The notes under the pieces: generated by a model
Databases searched by the model: none
What the model saw: only the letters and a program-made list of their open reading frames with translations
Told to the model about the DNA's origin: nothing
Program-made: the position numbers and the translations under genes
Assembly (NCBI GenBank): GCA_017521925.1
Contig: JAFXBG010000015.1
Coordinates: 1-64,000 of the forward strand
Length of the DNA stretch: 64,000 bases
Direction: 5' to 3'
DNA from: Clostridia bacterium
Lineage (GTDB): Bacteria > Bacillota > Clostridia > Oscillospirales > Acutalibacteraceae
Shown here: piece after piece, positions 19,984 to 62,748 of the stretch
Position numbering within the stretch: position 1 is the first letter of the stretch
Layout: each line of letters begins with the position of its first letter

Positions 19984-19997
19984 AAATAAATCTGCTG

Positions 19998-20067
19998 TGC
20001 TGTTGATGGTAGAAAATCTCTATGTGTAGTCTGTCCGAAGGCGAATTGCCCTCCCATGGCTAATGGG
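19998..20067 (+). repeat. Dispersed hairpin element, copy A
   Basis: Copy A of a conserved ~70-75 bp element. It shows TGTTGATGG, hairpin I TAGA-AAATC-TCTA (20010-20022), the GGCGAATTGCCCT block (20040-20052) and hairpin III CCCAT-GGCTA-ATGGG (20053-20067). It ends directly at the -35 box of the valS promoter. Confidence 0.75.
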
Positions 20068-20096
20068 TTGACAAACTTTGCGTAAAATGCGATAAT
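20068..20096 (+). promoter_or_regulatory. valS promoter
   Basis: TTGACA (20068-20073), 17 bp, GATAAT (20091-20096). The -35 begins at the base after repeat element A. No T-box is present, although valS is often T-box controlled in Firmicutes. Confidence 0.75.
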
Positions 20097-28003: not shown

Positions 28004-28039
28004 TAATAATGCTATATTTTGTTGTTTGTAAAAATCAAA

Positions 28040-28114
28040 CCTGCCGTTAATGGAAGATTGCCTTTAAATGTAACCTGTCCAAAGGCGAATTGCCCTGCAG
28101 GTGGCGAACGGGTT
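28040..28114 (+). repeat. Dispersed hairpin element, copy B
   Basis: Copy B of the ~75 bp element, with CTGCCGTTAATGG, TTTAAATGTAACCTGTCC, AAAGGCGAATTGCCCTG and GTGGCGAACGGG. The loop reads GGCGA rather than GGCTA, and the terminal stem is weak here. It ends on the pyk stop codon (28113-28115, minus strand). Confidence 0.7.
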
Positions 28115-31246: not shown

Positions 31247-31274
31247 ACAGGCACTTTTTTGTGAAGTGCCTGTT
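31247..31274 (+). terminator. gdhA terminator
   Basis: AACAGGCACTT / AAGTGCCTGTT stem followed by a T-rich stretch. An apparent start codon at 31266 falls inside it, which argues against a longer form of the next gene. Confidence 0.85.
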
Positions 31275-31364
31275 TACTTTTTATCTTTGTTGTTTAAATA
31301 TATTGCGTTAAGTTTTGTTATGACATACAATTATTATAAGGTTTATTCTGAACGGAGGATTAAC

Positions 31365-34313
31365 GTGAAAAAGTCGTTTTTTAAATTCACATCATTTATC
31401 CTGATGATAATGCTTCTTATGTCATCCTTTGCAGGGCTTTCCGTAACTGCTGAGGACATAGAAGATAATTATGTATGGAGCAAAGAAACTCCGTTTATAA
31501 TGTATGAAGATGAGAAAGGTATCCGATATATAGGTCCCACAGGTGACGAAGCATCAGATAACTGTACTGATGTTTTTGAGACAGAGTGTGAGGAAAATGT
31601 AAGATATAGCGGTGAACTTGCACCTGCAGCCGGCAATACTCTGCCTTCTCAGGTGGATATAAGTACATCCAAGTATTTTCCTGCTATCGGCAATCAGGGG
31701 TCGTTAGGCTCTTGTGCTACCTGGGCTACGGTTTATTATCAGTTTACCTATGAGATGAACCGTATGAGAGGTACCACAGCTACCCCTGAGAATACAGCTG
31801 CTCCAAATTTTGTATACAACATCCTTTCTCATAAGGACGCTTCCGGTACATCCGCCGAGGAAAATTATGCTGTTCTTAAGACTCAGGGTGTTCCTCCCAT
31901 TACGTTGCTTCCTTATAGCGACAAGGAGCATTTAAGCTGGAATGCTGACGAGAAAATCTGGCGTGAGGCTCTTAACTGGCGACTTAAGGACTATAAACAC
32001 CTTGAATATATCGGCAGAGATGGCAAAGAAATTACCTCTGCAACCGACCCTGACCTTGACGAGATTAAAACAGCTCTCAGCAACGGTCAGATGGTAACCT
32101 TCAGCTCTTTTATGAATTCTTGGGTTTACGATACCATTAAAACCCACTCTGATGCTCCTGAAAATTCAAAGTATGCAGGTGAGAAAATCGTAAAATACCT
32201 TGACGGAATCAAAGGCAGTCACAGAATGGTTATAGTCGGTTATAACGACGAACTCTGGTTTGACCACAACTCAAACGGCAAGGTAGATCTTGGCGAAAAA
32301 GGCGCCTTTAAAATTGCCAACTCATGGGGTACCGACTTTGCTAACAAGGGGTTCTGTTGGGTTTCCTACGATGCAGTCAATTATGAATCCTCTGTAGAAG
32401 GCGGTTATTCCAAAAGCGACCGTGAAGGTGCTATGAGCGACTTTACAACCATTACTGTCAGACCTTATAAAGAGGGTTCGGGTATTTACCTTAAGTTTAC
32501 CCTCAACACCGCTGACAGAACTCAGTTTTTTTTAAATGTTACCTCAGAGCATAACGGAACAAGCGAGAAAGCCTACTTTTTAAGCGGGATAAATTACTCA
32601 TTAAAGTCCGATAATCAATTTTCCTTATTGGGCAAAACTGTGGCTGAGGACGGTACCTTATGCTTCCCCTTGGACAATGTATCTCCTGAACTTAACAGCG
32701 AGAATTTCAACGAGTACACATTTTCTGTTACAATAAAGGACAGCAAAGCCGACTCTAAGCCCCTCAAGGTGAAGAGTCTTGAGCTTGTAAATGAGTATGA
32801 GGGCAAAACCTACAAGCCCTCCGCTGCCCTTCCTACACTGGACGGCAGTGAGCAGACTATAGATATCAAGGCGTGTGACACTGACAACAAGGTTATCTAT
32901 TACATCGGCTACGATGAGCCAATTCTTCACTACAGACAGAATGGCATCTGGCAAGAAGCTCAGATGGAGAAAAACGAGGAGCATTTAGGACATAATTACA
33001 AGTACGTTATTAAGAACATCCCTGAGGATGCATATGTTTATTTTTCCGACCAAAACGGTAACACCGACAATAACTCCGGCAGTTATTATGTTGCCAAGGA
33101 CCGACTTAATTACTTCCGTACAAAGGGTGTCCGTGATGAGCTTGTTTTAAAGGATTTTTGCCATGACCCTGAAATTCTTGATGCAGGCACAAACGGAAAT
33201 CTGATTTCTGAAGTAACAGGCGGTTATGAGCCTTATTATTTTCAGTACACCGTTGAGCATATTGAAAGCGGTGTAGTGAAAGTAGAAAAATTCAGAGCGA
33301 TTGAAGAAACTATGCACTACTTTGAAAAAGCAGGGCAGTACAGAATTACAGCCGAGGTTAAGGACCAGACCGGAGATATTGCAAGTCTTACTAAGGTTAT
33401 AACTATTACCGATATGCCCTTTATCTTCACAGAGCTTACAGCAACAAGTCAGCAGGGCGGTAATTTATTTGCAGGTGACCCCGTAACCTTCTATGCCCGT
33501 ACAAATTTCGAAGAAATAATGTATATGAGGAACGCCTATGAATTTGCTATAAAAGATTCAAACGGCAAAGTTTGCCACGAGGCAAGCGTCAAGCCTTTTA
33601 ACTGCAGTACTAACTTTGGCTACAGTATTATTTACTACGATTGGACTCCTGCAAAAAAAGGTGTATATACAGCTACCATATCCGAAACCGACGGCAACAA
33701 TGAATATGCTGAAAAATCCCTTACATTCACAGTTTTAGATAAGATTTACGGCGATGCTGACGGTGACGGCGAGGTTAATGTTAAAGATGCTACAGCTATT
33801 CAGAAATGTCTTGCAGGCTTAAATCAGGACTTTGTTCTTATGAAAGAGCTTGCAGACTGCGACACTAATAATGTATTAAGCATAAAGGATGCAACCTGTA
33901 TTAGAAAATACCTTGCAAATATTAAGGGAACAGGCAAAACAGGTGAGGTAATCGGTTATGTTCCTCCTGTAACAGAGCCAGAGAGTCAGCCTGTAACAGA
34001 GCCAAAGCCTGTAAGTAAAAACACAGTTACCTTTACAAACTCCTTTAATTGGAGCGGAACCATCTCCTGTTACTACTGGAGCGACAGTAATAAGAATATG
34101 ACCACCTGGCCGGGTAAGACTATGACAAAAGCGGGTACCAACGAATTCGGCGAAGCCTATTACACCTTTAATGTACCCGATGGTGCAACTTATGTTATCT
34201 TTACCAACGGTAAAGCGCAGACCGTTGATATTTCTTACAGCGGGGGAGATGTTAGGTACTATCCGCTTACCAAAACAAATGCAAACGGTCATTATGAAGT
34301 TTCAAAATGGTAA
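31365..34313 (+). CDS. Secreted C1A-like cysteine peptidase with dockerin and starch-binding (CBM26-like) module
   Basis: A 982-residue secreted protein. Signal peptide about 1-29. The papain-like domain (about 95-375) has the oxyanion Gln111 and catalytic Cys117 (NQGSLGSCATW), His286 (GSHRMVIVGY) and Asn319 (KIANSWGTDF). An Ig-like/PKD-type region fills about 400-790. A type I dockerin follows at about 800-865 (GDADGDGEVNVKDATAIQK, DTNNVLSIKDATCIRK), then a Pro/Glu linker and a C-terminal CBM26-like module (about 888-982, NSFNWSGTISCYYWS, TWPGKTM). The GTG at 31365 follows CGGAGG. It is probably anchored through its dockerin and may act on proteins associated with starch granules. Confidence 0.88.
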   Translation: MKKSFFKFTSFILMIMLLMSSFAGLSVTAEDIEDNYVWSKETPFIMYEDEKGIRYIGPTGDEASDNCTDVFETECEENVRYSGELAPAAGNTLPSQVDISTSKYFPAIGNQGSLGSCATWATVYYQFTYEMNRMRGTTATPENTAAPNFVYNILSHKDASGTSAEENYAVLKTQGVPPITLLPYSDKEHLSWNADEKIWREALNWRLKDYKHLEYIGRDGKEITSATDPDLDEIKTALSNGQMVTFSSFMNSWVYDTIKTHSDAPENSKYAGEKIVKYLDGIKGSHRMVIVGYNDELWFDHNSNGKVDLGEKGAFKIANSWGTDFANKGFCWVSYDAVNYESSVEGGYSKSDREGAMSDFTTITVRPYKEGSGIYLKFTLNTADRTQFFLNVTSEHNGTSEKAYFLSGINYSLKSDNQFSLLGKTVAEDGTLCFPLDNVSPELNSENFNEYTFSVTIKDSKADSKPLKVKSLELVNEYEGKTYKPSAALPTLDGSEQTIDIKACDTDNKVIYYIGYDEPILHYRQNGIWQEAQMEKNEEHLGHNYKYVIKNIPEDAYVYFSDQNGNTDNNSGSYYVAKDRLNYFRTKGVRDELVLKDFCHDPEILDAGTNGNLISEVTGGYEPYYFQYTVEHIESGVVKVEKFRAIEETMHYFEKAGQYRITAEVKDQTGDIASLTKVITITDMPFIFTELTATSQQGGNLFAGDPVTFYARTNFEEIMYMRNAYEFAIKDSNGKVCHEASVKPFNCSTNFGYSIIYYDWTPAKKGVYTATISETDGNNEYAEKSLTFTVLDKIYGDADGDGEVNVKDATAIQKCLAGLNQDFVLMKELADCDTNNVLSIKDATCIRKYLANIKGTGKTGEVIGYVPPVTEPESQPVTEPKPVSKNTVTFTNSFNWSGTISCYYWSDSNKNMTTWPGKTMTKAGTNEFGEAYYTFNVPDGATYVIFTNGKAQTVDISYSGGDVRYYPLTKTNANGHYEVSKW

Positions 34314-34362
34314 ACAGAGGTTATGAGCTGATTTACCGAGCCTAAAATTAAATATAAAAATT

Positions 34363-34396
34363 CCACCCGAACAAGTTTAATATCCTGTTCGGGTGG
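34363..34396. terminator. Bidirectional terminator between convergent dockerin genes
   Basis: CCACCCGAACA / TGTTCGGGTGG stem with a 12-nt loop, flanked by A-rich and T-rich tracts on both sides. Confidence 0.8.
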
Positions 34397-34413
34397 TTTA
34401 TTTTTAGGTTTAA

Positions 34414-35658
34414 TTAAATAAGGTTTGCAAGCTTTTTCTGAATCTGTGTTGCATCTTTGATGTTTACCTTGCTGTCGGTAAGGTAGTCAGCAAGAAGCAT
34501 CTGTTCACCATCCAATTGCTCTAATTTTGCAAGTGCCTTCTGAATAAGTGTTGCGTCACGGATATTAAGCTTGCCGTCACGGTTAACGTCACCAAGCTCA
34601 TATTCAGATGAGGGAGAGGTTGTAACGGTTTCAGAGGGGTCTGTAGGAGCTGTTGTTACCTCGTCGTATGATGAAACAGTAGTTGAAGGTACTGTTTCTG
34701 CCGGTGTTTCAGAAGAAGTGGTTGAAGGAGAGGTTTCTGTGGGTATTGTTAAGGTTGTTGCGGGTTCTGTTGCGGTCGTTGTGGGAGCAACGGGGATATC
34801 AGGTATAAGCTCTTCTCTTAAAACTGCACCTTCAGTAGTTTCTTTGCTTAAGAAGAAATAGGATTTTTCACCGCCCAGTACGGTCATATCCTGAACTGTA
34901 AGGTCAAGGTAAGCTTTGCCTGTGCCCACTGCAGTAAATTCAAAGGTAAGAAGGAGTTTTTCATTCTTAAAATCATAACCTTCAAGATTGCAGGAGTTTA
35001 AAGCAACCAAGCTGTTGATATTGGTGTTAAAAGAAACTTCAGAAAGGGTGGGACAGCAGATTTTTTCAGTTGTATCTGTAAGAGAAAGCTTGCTTTCATC
35101 AAAGTTAAGCACAACCTGAATATCCTCAAAAGCTTCGTCTGCTTTAAGATAAACATTGTAAGTGAATTTATCACCCATGGTTGCGGTGATTTCCTGATTG
35201 TTTGCAATTACTGTAAGGGCTTCTCCGCTGTTATCAGGGTTACCTGTTCCTGCTTTTTTTATTTTAAGGAGGTCGCTGTCTGTGTTGTATTCAAAGGTAT
35301 ATTCGCCGCCGCTTGCAAGCAATGTACATCTTGCATCAACGTTTTCGCTGAGCAGGATACCGTTATCTCCGATTCTGGAAGTTGTATCCTTAACGGTTGT
35401 GGGATGACTCAGAAGTGTGCCGTTTTCCTCAACTTCAAACTGATAACTGCCTGCATCAAGCTTGGTGCTTAAGAAGAAGTTTTTATTATCTTCAGTTGTC
35501 ATTTCTTTGCCTTCAAAGTTGTTGAAAGCGGCAAAAAGAGTAACAAAGTTTTCTGCATCCTCAGTATCATCCGTATCGCCTGCAAAAACAGAAATACTCT
35601 GTACCGAAAGCAGCATACACAGCACAAGAATAATTGATAAAATACCTTTATATTTCAT
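34414..35658 (-). CDS. Secreted protein with X25-like, cohesin-like and dockerin domains
   Basis: A 414-residue secreted protein. Signal peptide about 1-26. Residues about 35-140 resemble a starch-enzyme X25/SusE-like beta domain (LDAGSYQFEVEENG, CTLLASGGEYTFEYNTDSD). Residues about 148-270 look cohesin-like (GDKFTYNVYLKADEAFEDIQ, LLTFEFTAVGTGKAYLDL). A Thr/Pro/Ser linker (about 285-345) leads to a C-terminal type I dockerin (GDVNRDGKLNIRDATLIQK, DYLTDSKVNIKDATQIQKK). A cohesin-like plus a dockerin on one chain would suit an adaptor in a cell-surface complex. The domain calls are by eye. Confidence 0.8.
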   Translation of the reverse strand: MKYKGILSIILVLCMLLSVQSISVFAGDTDDTEDAENFVTLFAAFNNFEGKEMTTEDNKNFFLSTKLDAGSYQFEVEENGTLLSHPTTVKDTTSRIGDNGILLSENVDARCTLLASGGEYTFEYNTDSDLLKIKKAGTGNPDNSGEALTVIANNQEITATMGDKFTYNVYLKADEAFEDIQVVLNFDESKLSLTDTTEKICCPTLSEVSFNTNINSLVALNSCNLEGYDFKNEKLLLTFEFTAVGTGKAYLDLTVQDMTVLGGEKSYFFLSKETTEGAVLREELIPDIPVAPTTTATEPATTLTIPTETSPSTTSSETPAETVPSTTVSSYDEVTTAPTDPSETVTTSPSSEYELGDVNRDGKLNIRDATLIQKALAKLEQLDGEQMLLADYLTDSKVNIKDATQIQKKLANLI

Positions 35659-41505: not shown

Positions 41506-41513
41506 CCATAGCC

Positions 41514-41583
41514 CCGCCGTTAATGAACTTATCCTTTAAATGAAATTTATCTAAAGGTGGAATTGCCCTCAGTGGCTAACCTG
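41514..41583 (+). repeat. Dispersed hairpin element, copy C
   Basis: Copy C of the ~70-75 bp element: CCGCCGTTAATGA, CCTTTAAATGAAATTTATC, AAAGGTGGAATTGCCCTC and CAGT-GGCTA-ACCTG (stem with one bulged C). The GGC of the small hairpin is GGT here, keeping a G-U pair. The copy ends at the trpS stop codon. Confidence 0.7.
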
Positions 41584-52230: not shown

Positions 52231-52521
52231 TTAAAAGATAGATTTTGTATCAACAAATTGGAATCTGCGGGATAGCCACCCGCAGGGCAACTCAACCTCA
52301 CTACCGTTCTTGTAGCTGAATACAACACTTCCGTCTGCATTTACTGTGACTTTATCTACTGTAGTATGCCAGAGGGTGGGTGACCATTTGAGGTTGAGGA
52401 TGTCGAGTTCATTCAGGGCAAAGAGGAAGGCACTAAGTGCATCTGCCTGATATAGTCTGCGTTCTCGCTGCCCCGATAAAATTTCATAGTGCTTTTGGCT
52501 TTTGGTGGAAATATTTGACAC
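52231..52521 (-). pseudogene. Serine-recombinase C-terminal fragment 2 with a fused repeat end
   Basis: A 96-codon minus-strand frame starting at a GTG with no good RBS. Residues about 10-75 match fragment 1 (HYEILSGQRERRLYQADALSAFLFALNEL, TLWHTTVDKVTVNADGSVVF) and are a serine-recombinase C-terminus. The expected ending KNGSEVE is followed by LPCGWLSRRFQFVDTKSIF, which is not recombinase sequence; it is encoded by a partial copy of the dispersed hairpin element (52266-52290) and neighbouring sequence. Probably not a functional gene. Confidence 0.6.
52266..52290 (-). repeat. Partial dispersed hairpin element, copy E
   Basis: On the minus strand TTGCCC-TGCGGGT-GGCTA-TCCCGCA is the right-hand third of the element, almost identical to copy D (61482-61506). 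The left two thirds are missing; the break falls at the join with the recombinase fragment. Confidence 0.7.
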
Positions 52522-59516: not shown

Positions 59517-60077
59517 ATGCAGGATGAAAAAATTGTAGAGCTTTACTTCAGCAGGGACGAGCTTGCTTTGAAGGAAACCGAAAACAAGTACGGCAAATAT
59601 CTTTTTAAAATTGCCTTTGGTATTTTAGCGGATATTTCGGATTCTGAGGAAAGTGTCAACGATACATATCTTGCGGCGTGGAATTCTATTCCGCCTAATA
59701 AACCTTCGCGGCTTTCTACATATTTAGGTAAGCTTACAAGGCGGATTTCAATTGATATTTTCCGCAAAAAGAGTTCTAAAAAGCGAAACGGCTCACAGTA
59801 TGCTTTGTCAATTAAAGAGCTTGAGGATTGCGTAAAATCAAATGAAAATATGGAAGAAGATATGGAGAATAAGGCTTTAGGTTTGGCGATTAATGACTTT
59901 TTGCGTACTTTAAGTAAAGAAAGCCGTGTGCTGTTTGTAAGCAGGTATTACTTCTGCGACTCTCTTAAAGATGCGGCAAAAAGTCTTGGAATAACTGAGG
60001 GTAAGGCAAAATCCACCCTTTTCAGAACAAGGCAGAAGCTTAAGGATTACTTATTAAAGGAGGGTTTTGAAATATGA
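59517..60077 (+). CDS. ECF-type RNA polymerase sigma factor
   Basis: A 186-residue sigma factor. Region 2: YGKYLFKIAFGILADISDSEESVNDTYLAAWNSIPPN and LGKLTRRISIDIFRKK; region 4: LRTLSKESRVLFVSRYYFCDSLKDAAKSLGI and KAKSTLFRTRQKLKDYL. AGGAGGG stands upstream of the ATG. The stop overlaps the membrane partner start (ATGA). The 216-bp gap before it (59301-59516) shows no convincing promoter or gene. Confidence 0.92.
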   Translation: MQDEKIVELYFSRDELALKETENKYGKYLFKIAFGILADISDSEESVNDTYLAAWNSIPPNKPSRLSTYLGKLTRRISIDIFRKKSSKKRNGSQYALSIKELEDCVKSNENMEEDMENKALGLAINDFLRTLSKESRVLFVSRYYFCDSLKDAAKSLGITEGKAKSTLFRTRQKLKDYLLKEGFEI

Positions 60078-61324
60078 AAGCAGAAAATATAAGCGATGCT
60101 CTTATGTTTCTGGAGGATGATATTATCGAGGAAACTGAGAGCATAAGAAACAGAAAAAAGAATTATAAAGTTATATGGCTCAGATGCCTTTCTGCTGCAG
60201 CTTGCCTGTGCATGGCATTAGTGGCGGTTTTTGGTGCGGTGAAGAGCTTTGATTTGCCATTAAGGGGTAACGGCTCCAACAATACAAATAATTCATCCTG
60301 GGCAGGTACTAAGGGTGAAAGCCAGCCTGTTGATGAATATAAATACGGAGGAGCTTTGGGCTCTGTATCGGGCTCAATGGATTTGCCTGATGACGGTGTT
60401 TATCTTGAGATAAAAGAGTGGAAAAGAAACTGCTTTTACGCATTGGTGCTTAGTGCCAAAAGTGAGGATTTGCCTAATGGTATGATGGTTAAGGTTAAGT
60501 TCTCTAAAGATATAATGTATGCAGACCACCCTTCGTGGAACGGATTAGGAGATTCTTTTTATGAGGACGGAATTCCCACTGAAAAGATATTTCCTGTGGG
60601 ATGCAAAGTATATGTTACCTTTGATAAAATGCGTAACAGCTTTTTTAATAGCAAAGCCCAAAAGGTTATAACGGCAAATTGCGTGTATTTTCATAAAGGC
60701 GAGGTTCCTTTGCGTGGCCCCGATGGGTTTAACAGGGTGACCTACTATGTAGAGATTACAAATTGGGGTCACAAAGAGTTTGATGGTATAATTAAAGGTT
60801 CAGACGGTAACGCGGGTAAATTGCCAATAGGTAAAGAGGTAACCTTTAAGTTTGACGAAAATATTCGCGTAAAGAAACAGGGCGGAAAGTTCGAAAACTT
60901 TATTCCCACCGAAGAAGATTTTCCTGTAGGAAGCAGGGTGGAAGTCTTTGCAAATGATTACGATGCCCCAAAATTTTTGGGAACATCTGAAATGTGGATT
61001 TATTCTATAAGCGATTTAAACAGACATCAGACTTTATTGGTAAGGATTGATAAGTGGAACGATAGTGGCTTTACAGGTACACTTCAAGGAGAAAACGGCC
61101 AGCAGGCACTTTACTATACAAATAATACTGCGGTTGTAGAATTTACCGACAATACCCGCACAGAAAGCCATGAAAAATGGGGCACAACTACCATAAGTTT
61201 AGCACCTACCGAGGAGGATTTTCCTGTAGGAACAACGGTTGAAGTAAGCTACTATAAGTCTGTTCAAAAATCTATTAACGAAACAATTTACACCGCCGAG
61301 CGGATATGGCTTTTTGAGCAGTAG
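60074..61324 (+). CDS. Sigma-factor partner membrane protein with three tandem extracellular repeats
   Basis: A 416-residue single-pass protein: cytoplasmic part 1-35, TM segment about 36-57, then three ~95-residue repeats starting near 110, 215 and 320. Each repeat has an EIxEW/ITNW/IDKW strand, a [KG]GTLxG-type strand and a PTExxFPVGxxVxV end (about residues 170, 275 and 380). The repeat is not one I recognise. The coupling to the sigma gene suggests it is the anti-sigma or signal receiver. The start overlaps the sigma stop by 4 bp. Confidence 0.75.
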   Translation: MKAENISDALMFLEDDIIEETESIRNRKKNYKVIWLRCLSAAACLCMALVAVFGAVKSFDLPLRGNGSNNTNNSSWAGTKGESQPVDEYKYGGALGSVSGSMDLPDDGVYLEIKEWKRNCFYALVLSAKSEDLPNGMMVKVKFSKDIMYADHPSWNGLGDSFYEDGIPTEKIFPVGCKVYVTFDKMRNSFFNSKAQKVITANCVYFHKGEVPLRGPDGFNRVTYYVEITNWGHKEFDGIIKGSDGNAGKLPIGKEVTFKFDENIRVKKQGGKFENFIPTEEDFPVGSRVEVFANDYDAPKFLGTSEMWIYSISDLNRHQTLLVRIDKWNDSGFTGTLQGENGQQALYYTNNTAVVEFTDNTRTESHEKWGTTTISLAPTEEDFPVGTTVEVSYYKSVQKSINETIYTAERIWLFEQ

Positions 61325-61396
61325 GGGCCGATATTATCAGCCCGAACGGTTTCATAGTATAGCAAGGTTTAACGGGCGATTGATAATCGCACCTAC
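61321..61396. repeat. Pair of inverted GTAGGGGCGAT-type palindromic repeats
   Basis: GTAGGGGCCGATATTATC...CGAACGGTTTC runs rightwards at 61321-61353, and GTAGGTGCGATTATCAATCG... runs on the minus strand from 61396 to about 61363. The two units face each other with a short AT-rich spacer, forming a larger inverted repeat. It overlaps the last codon of the upstream gene and lies 35 bp before element D. Confidence 0.65.
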
Positions 61397-61431
61397 GGTT
61401 GTGTCTTAACATTAACAAAAGTTAATCTTAC

Positions 61432-61506
61432 CCGCCGTTGATGACAGGTTATCTGTAAATGTAACTTATTCAAAGGCGGAAATGCCCTGCGGGTGGCTAA
61501 CCCGCA
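61432..61506 (+). repeat. Dispersed hairpin element, copy D
   Basis: The best-formed copy: CCGCCGTTGATG, hairpin I ACAG-GTTAT-CTGT (61444-61456), TAAATGTAACTTATT, small hairpin GGC-GGAAAT-GCC (61475-61486), and hairpin III TGCGGGT-GGCTA-ACCCGCA (61488-61506). It ends 1 bp before the AAAGGAGG ribosome binding site of the serpin gene. Confidence 0.8.
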
Positions 61507-61521: not shown

Positions 61522-62748
61522 ATGAAGACAAAAATTACAGCGATTATTTTAATTTTATCGTTAACGATTTCTTTTTTACTTTCAGGGTGCTCAGAGGATG
61601 TTGTTAAGAATTTAAGCGATGATATTGAACCCGATACTTATATCCTTTATGATGATATTTTTGAACATGAGGATTATTCAGACTTTGCGTTAAAGCTTTT
61701 CGAAAAGTGCTTCGACGGTGAGGATAACACCCTTGTATCGCCTCTGTCAATTGCACTTGCTTTTGCAATGGTAGCCGAGGGTGCGGACGATGAAACCCTT
61801 GCAGAAATTGAAGATGTATTGGGAATGAACATTGAAGAATTAAGAGTGTTCGCACAGGGATTTCTGAAAGAAAACAAGCAGTTAAGCACATCAAACTCTG
61901 TATGGATTAATAACGTTGACGGATTTAATGTTAATAAAGATTTCCTTAAGAATAATTCTGCTTACCACAATGCTGAGGTTTTTGAGGGTAAATTCAACGA
62001 CAAAATCGTAGACGAAATCAACAAATGGGTCAGAAAAAACACCGACGGTATGATTGAAAAAATAGTTGATAGCCTTGACGAAAGAGCCGTTATGTGTTTA
62101 GTCAATGCTTTGCTTTTTGATGCAAAGTGGGAAGATGTTTACGACGAGCATCAGGTTAGTGACGGCGTTTTTGTTACAGAAAAAGCCGAGATTGAGCCTG
62201 TAAAGTATATGCACAGTTCTGAAAATCTTTATATTAAAGATGAAAAAGCTACAGGCTTTGTAAAATACTACGAGGGCAGAGAGTACGCCTTTGTAGCATT
62301 GCTCCCCGATGTGGGTGTTAGTGTAGAGGAGTATGTAAGCACACTTGACGGCGAAAGGCTTGAAGAACTTTTAGAAAATGCTGAGGAAACGGAAGTCCGT
62401 ACAAAAATCCCTAAGTTTGAGTACGAAACGGATTTAAACCTTAAGTCTGTGCTTAAAGATATGGGTATGGAAAAAGCCTTTGATGAGGAAAAGGCGGATT
62501 TTTCTAAGCTTGGTCAGATTCAGGACGGTAACATCTGGATTGGGGATGTACTGCACAGTACAAAAATCACAGTAGCCGAGCAGGGCACAAAAGCAGGTGC
62601 CGCAACGGCAGTTATAATGTACGGCAACGGTGCATTGCCCTCTGAGCCAAAAGAAGTGTATCTTGAAAGACCTTTTGTGTATATGATAGTTGATATGGAA
62701 AATCACCTTCCTGTGTTTATGGGCACGGTTATGAGCATAGCTGATTGA
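61522..62748 (+). CDS. Serpin (serine/cysteine peptidase inhibitor), lipoprotein
   Basis: A 408-residue serpin. A lipoprotein signal is at 1-22 (lipobox LLSGC, Cys22), so it is held on the outer membrane face. The serpin core includes TLVSPLSIALAFAMVAEGA, LSTSNSVWIN, VNALLFDAKW and the C-terminal ERPFVYMIVD. The hinge of the reactive loop, EQGTKAGAATAVIM, has the small residues needed for insertion, so it is probably inhibitory. By analogy with other serpins P1 is near MYGNG, likely Asn or Gly; target is uncertain. The start follows AAAGGAGG directly after element D. Confidence 0.93.
   Translation: MKTKITAIILILSLTISFLLSGCSEDVVKNLSDDIEPDTYILYDDIFEHEDYSDFALKLFEKCFDGEDNTLVSPLSIALAFAMVAEGADDETLAEIEDVLGMNIEELRVFAQGFLKENKQLSTSNSVWINNVDGFNVNKDFLKNNSAYHNAEVFEGKFNDKIVDEINKWVRKNTDGMIEKIVDSLDERAVMCLVNALLFDAKWEDVYDEHQVSDGVFVTEKAEIEPVKYMHSSENLYIKDEKATGFVKYYEGREYAFVALLPDVGVSVEEYVSTLDGERLEELLENAEETEVRTKIPKFEYETDLNLKSVLKDMGMEKAFDEEKADFSKLGQIQDGNIWIGDVLHSTKITVAEQGTKAGAATAVIMYGNGALPSEPKEVYLERPFVYMIVDMENHLPVFMGTVMSIAD

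Follow-up and report, generated by a model that had tools for sequence, protein, structure and literature searches.

Copies in the 64-kb window

The window (the whole stretch of DNA that was analysed, 64,000 nucleotides) contains four plus-strand copies, A to D, of a repeat consisting of a two-stem head (P1 and P2) and a terminal hairpin (P3). Copy D is adjoined downstream by a bacterial serpin gene (61522-62748, Pfam E 2.1e-82), with AAGGAGG immediately 3' of P3 and the serpin ATG at 61522. Copy A lies between an ORF of 347 aa and valS (assigned by NCBIfam), and the next sequence after its P3 is TTGACA, which we label a -35-like hexamer. Copies B and C are found past the stop codons of the pyruvate kinase and tryptophanyl-tRNA synthetase genes, respectively, both of which are on the minus strand; the terminal stem of B is decayed. 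An earlier note on this DNA had claimed four related copies, and all four are present on the plus strand, their limits having been placed correctly within 1-2 nt. Scores below are those of R1, a covariance model for which 22 own-genome rows were used, including A and D and leaving out B and C.

19997-20068, plus strand: copy A, 58.6 bits, among the model's own rows
28039-28113, plus strand: copy B, 71.4 bits, no part in model building
41512-41582, plus strand: copy C, 52.8 bits, no part in model building
61430-61505, plus strand: copy D, full element, 88.7 bits, among the model's own rows
61432-61436, plus strand: copy D, P1 5' arm CCGCC, partner GGCGG at 61475-61479 (fold and P1 covariation)
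61475-61479, plus strand: copy D, P1 3' arm GGCGG (fold and P1 covariation)
61446-61451, plus strand: copy D, P2 5' arm AGGTTA, partner TAACTT at 61462-61467 (fold and weak covariation)
61488-61506, plus strand: copy D, P3 terminal hairpin TGCGGGT-GGCTA-ACCCGCA (sequence, fold and P3 covariation)
52267-52351, minus strand: hairpin remnant, head not recognisable, 22.7 bits, E 0.0019 for the window
34311-34414, no strand: empty site, stop codon and terminator without elements, aligned to locus L263 of the sister species G026, which has two

Just upstream of copy D, at 61321-61396, there is an inverted pair of GTAG-tagged hairpins in the REPIN layout, and its GTAG contains the TAG stop of the gene at 60074-61324. 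Elsewhere in the window a T-box leader (100.1 bits) occupies 439-688, and 31266-34313 encodes a 1015-aa protein with a dockerin domain and the starch-binding module CBM26, a combination as in amylosome bacteria.

Fold and covariation

The fold consists of a GC stem, P1 (CCGCC/GGCGG), that encloses the weaker stem P2 and is followed by a short linker and the terminal hairpin P3; the head carries the conserved motifs GTTRATG and CCAAAG. The linker between head and P3 is mostly 4-9 nt long, the P3 stem is mostly 5-7 bp, and the whole element is about 75 bp; tandem arrangements of heads and of hairpins were also seen. Covariation was assessed in 114 copies matched by R1 at E<=0.001, 60 from loci of the own genome (G000) and 54 from 20 stretches of G026 picked for holding copies. 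It is strong in P3, with 95.2% of cells paired and 78 two-sided changes versus 21.6 in shuffles, and clear in P1, with 94.7% paired and 10 two-sided changes versus 1.8; P2 has 70.9% of cells paired and 47 two-sided changes versus 36.4, and its covariation is therefore graded as weak. Once the partners are slid, the paired percentage falls to 3.8-52.6.

Detection of copies is biased, as R1 rewards P3 pairing. As the 114-copy alignment (A4) was fitted to the structure of the model and leans towards it, an independent test was made with R2, a model of the head only, without P3, which gave 133 matches over 86 loci, nearly all from other genomes. Of the 123 R2 matches whose distinct 3' flank measures 30 nt or more, 96 have a perfect hairpin of at least 5 bp starting 4-9 nt past the head. 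Mononucleotide shuffles gave 4.3 (at most 10), and of 553 control windows farther downstream 35 have such a hairpin. By a looser rule, a hairpin is present within 35 nt of the head in 100 of 126 copies and absent in 26, and the 100 comprise 58 distinct arm-and-loop sequences. These results contradict the two outcomes that the earlier note had named as fatal to its proposal, namely copies that match in primary sequence and never fold, and stems that vary without compensation. Folding energy is low against shuffles for copy D on both strands (z -3.0 and -3.2) and for copy A on the minus strand (z -2.4), and not low for A on the plus strand (z -0.8), nor for B or C on either strand.

Several details of the structure differ from those proposed at the outset. 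As had been described, A has the terminal stem CCCAT/ATGGG and D has TGCGGGT/ACCCGCA, both around GGCTA, and the terminal stem is weak in B and imperfect in C. The GGCTA loop, said to be invariant, is GGCGA in B and GGCTC, GCT, TCA, CACC or CGC in other copies, and the shared motifs that had been quoted are approximate, AAAGGCGAATTGCCCT and TTTAAATGTAAC each being exact in B only. A first small hairpin had been reported to differ in compensated fashion between A and D; by our reading of the alignment, the segments compared are not homologous (TAGA/TCTA falls in columns 20-23/30-33, ACAG/CTGT in columns 19-22/29-32), and among the 114 copies neither register pairs or covaries beyond shuffles, 327/500 and 158/500 of which reach its paired percentage. 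That hairpin, one of the two offered as covarying, is a register artefact; the supported inner stem is AGGTTA/TAACYT, i.e. P2, and the outer stem P1 had been overlooked. Two-sided changes can also arise without selection on each pair, if hairpins are exchanged as blocks or if palindromes are repaired by template switching. The claim that a dispersed element is kept for its fold came through the test set for it; the original interpretation as a whole is partly supported.

Position beside genes, distribution and site history

The copies are located next to the 3' ends of genes. P3 often abuts a stop codon and, less often, a terminator tract or a start-site signal (gene calls being plain greedy ORFs, and terminator, promoter and parS labels being assigned by eye or by a simple pattern). 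Among the 83 copies in which P3 faces a stop codon, 31 have P3 within 2 nt of it, versus 3.1 expected and a maximum of 11 in 20,000 simulations of uniform placement in the same intergenic regions; on the P1 side such contact was found in 0 of 68 copies (2.0 expected). Directly outside P3 there are 48 stop codons (TAA 38, TAG 5, TGA 5), 16 terminator-like tracts, 17 further modules, 2 Shine-Dalgarno sequences, which are immediately preceded by copy D and by a copy at uvrA, and 31 other sequences with no recognised feature (n=114). Directly outside P1, plain spacer was found in 105 copies, a terminator-like tract in 8 and a stop codon in 1. In several copies farther from the stop, additional hairpin modules bridge to it, and in some copies the first base of the hairpin doubles as the third base of the stop codon, e.g., at rlmH, where the stop is TAA in G000 and TAG in G026, the hairpin base being shared. 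The genes whose stop is contacted by P3 include dnaA, fba, rlmH, pyk, trpS, dut, argS, glmS, pnp, hydG, and mutS2 (14 of the 48 such genes scanned). Similar contact was seen in other species with other hairpins: 54 copies there face an ORF of at least 100 codons, and 17 of them are within 2 nt of its stop.

The element occurs in both orientations next to unrelated housekeeping genes. In 440,547 bases containing 58 copies (57 placed), there are 24 in 6.2 kb of convergent regions, 33 in 29.4 kb of tandem regions and none in the 43 divergent regions examined, which total 11.9 kb; with smaller ORFs counted, 2 of 114 have a divergent setting. A gene start is faced by 28 of the 114 copies. P3 is equally intact across four contexts (paired cells 101/107, 93/97, 181/192, and 40/40), the last of which comprises 13 copies beyond a terminator-like site of the neighbouring gene; P1 pairing is somewhat lower in the terminator class (46/52). 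Two observations on individual sites are added here. The dnaA stop TAG lies within the element's hairpin in G026 and overlaps the first base of the hairpin in G000 (L246:180-1499, L256:12284-13603). At L090:322-391 and L256:3838-3908, P3 is adjoined by TTTCACGTGAAAC, which resembles the ParB site parS.

An early BLAST search with a typed 77-nt composite gave 37 own-genome matches at E<=1. With R1, the own draft genome (1.4 Mb, 72.6% complete, 150 of 564 candidates scored) has 68 matches at E<=1 and 60 at E<0.001, the 22 model rows included, which is beyond chance. The search of the host and its relatives that the earlier note recommended gave many copies: at E<=0.01, 14 of 59 genomes, own included, have R1 matches, with 81 in the sister species G026 (93% complete), 28 in G018 (89%) and 1-6 in each of 11 further genomes of the genus, and 0 of 23 genomes from other families of the order have any. 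Within the genus, R2 at E<=0.001 matched 42 of 100 genomes (the own genome being one of them), with at least 17 matches in each of ten genomes and no head match in 58; at E<=0.0001 it matched none of 244 other genomes drawn from the order, the own genome being the sole match among 245 (18 of the order-sample rows listed are other genera within the same family). Searches over 40 genomes used stricter filters that lose weak matches and scored the best candidates, and such counts are lower bounds. The repeat, carried by some gut Ruminococcus-like bacteria, is thus genus-specific in its distribution and patchy within the genus.

A pattern scan of species genomes found at least 112 stretches; among the 80 listed, 69 are labelled Ruminococcus, Clostridia, Clostridiales, Ruminococcaceae, or Oscillospiraceae, including the isolate Ruminococcaceae bacterium P7, with a single head copy, and one unplaced 'bacterium' record is also R1-positive. 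Ten of the 80, from other phyla or unplaced, have no R1 match and were treated as chance; R1, tuned to the hairpin of the own genome, misses several Ruminococcus-labelled loci at E<=0.001. Copy D gave no match in phage and plasmid collections, two viral pattern-scan matches have no R1 match, and a phage or plasmid origin is unsupported.

The history of individual sites was followed between sister species, the window and G026 sharing 11 aligned blocks, 7 at 82-89% identity and 4 at 72-74%. The element is present at two of 30 pyruvate kinase loci, the one in G000 and the one in G026. Among 30 trpS loci, a match directly 3' of the gene was found in G000 only, the G026 protein being 99% identical; in G018, three copies lie farther downstream, some 0.5-0.8 kb past trpS. 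The site between convergent genes at 34313-34414 is empty in the window and has two copies in G026, at the stop codon and at the terminator, respectively. In the cleanest example of an empty site, a new spacer stands in place of the old one, which has not just been split. The place orthologous to that of copy A has, in G026, the hairpin sequence without a head (by eye). Nineteen orthologous pairs were compared and 18 used, the dropped pair being that of a G026 copy without a head. Their heads are 68% identical, versus 61% for non-orthologous ones, a small excess reached by chance in 2 of 5000 trials. The P3 stem is the same in 2 of the 18 pairs, and small decay is also scored as a difference, because the limits of P3 were set automatically; by eye, a full and different hairpin is present in both species in 5 of the 18. 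At argS the hairpin is wholly different, and the 45 flanking bases shown are identical. Such alignments show that whole hairpins are at times exchanged at orthologous sites.

Relation to known repeats and interpretation

No description of this repeat was found in the literature searched, the coverage of which was partial. No Rfam 15 family reached its gathering score; below threshold, the best of 4 matches at copy D had 17.3 bits (cut-off 57) and the best of 3 in L157 had 17.9 (cut-off 81). The repeat appears to represent a new family among the small bacterial repeats, which are best studied in Proteobacteria. Its closest likeness in behaviour is to REP, BIME, and REPIN elements: it is short, folded, extragenic, present in dozens of copies, lineage-specific, often arranged as inverted neighbours or clusters, and found near stop codons. 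The many extragenic copies typical of REPs are there (60 at E<0.001, intergenic), and REPs, too, are said to avoid divergent regions. However, it has three stems in about 75 bp, versus a REP palindrome of about 20-40 bp, and is built of a two-stem head and an exchangeable hairpin, with one defined end touching features. Nor was a RAYT found for it in G026 or G018, or a GTAG or CGTC tag at its borders, as judged by base composition in 114 upstream and 113 downstream flanks. By the tests made, the repeat is REP-like in behaviour and yet not a GTAG/CGTC REP.

Other small elements offer partial parallels. Like MITEs, the repeat is small, non-coding, dispersed and likely non-autonomous, but it is without complementary flanks or target-site duplication. 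In its modular build, with a variable number of hairpin modules, it presumably resembles the BOX elements of streptococci, by their description. Integron attC sites are, we assume, similar in having a conserved structure with variable sequence directly after stop codons, and their core motifs presumably do not fit; unlike attC sites, our copies are scattered beside housekeeping genes and do not form cassette arrays.

The search for a mobilising enzyme gave no Y1 transposase (PF01797, E<=0.001) in the incomplete genomes of G026 and G018. Ten dense clusters are flanked by 32 ORFs; the 20 of these that were searched include no transposase, and 6 of them lack any Pfam match. G000 has one PF01797 gene, labelled by us 'IS200-like', near a degraded copy and with hairpins of its own beside it. 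Target-site duplications are absent, flank repeats being at the level of shuffled pairs, and so are complementary flanks. The copies were also considered as ends of a larger palindromic transposon and this was rejected: in 14 closely spaced inverted pairs or clusters, the two copies for the most part each face a feature of their own, and the spacers they surround are unrelated, several containing a terminator-like hairpin (by eye).

Our preferred reading, with a probability of roughly 0.55, is that of a structured DNA repeat, about 75 bp long, which is dispersed, specific to one genus and REP-like in behaviour. The occurrence in both orientations, the unrelated genes, the intact P3 in all contexts and the lack of an Rfam match favour a DNA-level over an RNA reading, two options between which the earlier note had not chosen. 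As neither an enzyme nor a target-site duplication was found, the step from structure to spreading is one that we infer: the repeat would be copied at the DNA level by a trans-acting enzyme recognising the folded single strand. The sequence of the P3 stem varies by locus and species, partly through exchange of whole hairpins, with complementarity and position retained. Contact of P3 with its features could come about by insertion that removes the P3-side spacer, or by repeated loss of that spacer until a selected feature is met. Where P3 comes straight after a stop codon, it may also affect the upstream mRNA as a secondary consequence, and slow accumulation with no present movement is possible as well. 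The repeat is an abundant, genus-restricted family in gut Clostridia that is asymmetric, one defined end tending to touch functional boundaries and the other not. With filled and empty sites and rapid hairpin turnover in sister species, the crowding of small repeats around stop codons can here be tested as a matter of insertion, of spacer loss or of function.

A bolder version, which we offer tentatively, is that of a new class of repeat with a directional end. Its exchangeable hairpin tip would advance or insert as far as the first feature under selection (stop codon, terminator, Shine-Dalgarno sequence, promoter or parS-like site), so that P3-side spacer alone is consumed, and hairpins would be traded as blocks via a putative enzyme.

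Considerably less probable than the preferred reading is a 3'-UTR RNA element in the reverse sense, in which P3 after the stop would stall or release the ribosome or shield the mRNA end, and P1 and P2 would bind a protein. All three kinds of stop codon are contacted, and the pyruvate kinase copy sits between the stop codon and a terminator-like hairpin and is therefore probably transcribed. REPs lie near stop codons, and those of E. coli less than 16 nt from the stop are reported to lower translation (PMC12306157). However, the intact state of P3 in all contexts, the 13 copies past terminator-like sites of neighbours among them, weakens any RNA-only reading; copies facing gene starts, the unrelated genes and the 58 genomes of the genus without a head match also speak against such an element.

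Mutational upkeep alone, in which template-switch correction of quasi-palindromes would keep the hairpins of decayed repeats perfect and structure would be under no selection, is improbable. In its favour, P3 changes by whole arms with few intermediates (pair 97/107: GC 34, CG 23, AT 5), and P1 has 14 G-T versus 15 A-C, with no evident strand bias in an alignment that, having been fitted on one strand, says little on this point. However, the P1 arms covary although they are about 40 nt apart, GTTRATG and CCAAAG are conserved across species (in rows partly chosen by an exact head pattern), and the copy number and the contact with stop codons are left unexplained.

That the repeat is a GTAG/CGTC-type REP moved by a RAYT is very unlikely. 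Movement of REP pairs by RAYTs has been proposed (PMC3116915), and GTAG REPs are reported to supply a TAG stop codon (PMC3733652). Extragenic position, many copies, inverted neighbours and stop-codon contact would fit, and separate GTAG-tagged hairpin pairs coexist in the same genomes, similar pairs recurring in G026 stretches; a GTAG hairpin lies within 160 nt of the P1 side in 16 of 114 elements and of the P3 side in 2. Yet the missing border tags contradict this reading, and the three-stem form and the failure to find a Y1 transposase in the copy-rich G026 and G018 speak against it. A riboswitch or other 5' cis-regulatory RNA, suggested by the position of copy D and the uvrA copy just before Shine-Dalgarno sequences, is the least credible reading, given that a minority of copies face a gene start, that the genes are unrelated, those named having no common pathway, with no constant position and sense before them, and that no Rfam family matched.

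Dense tandem or mixed clusters of heads and hairpins were found at L130:5428-7258, L157:2277-2748, and L187:2746-3086, and are promising spots for spotting recent copying.
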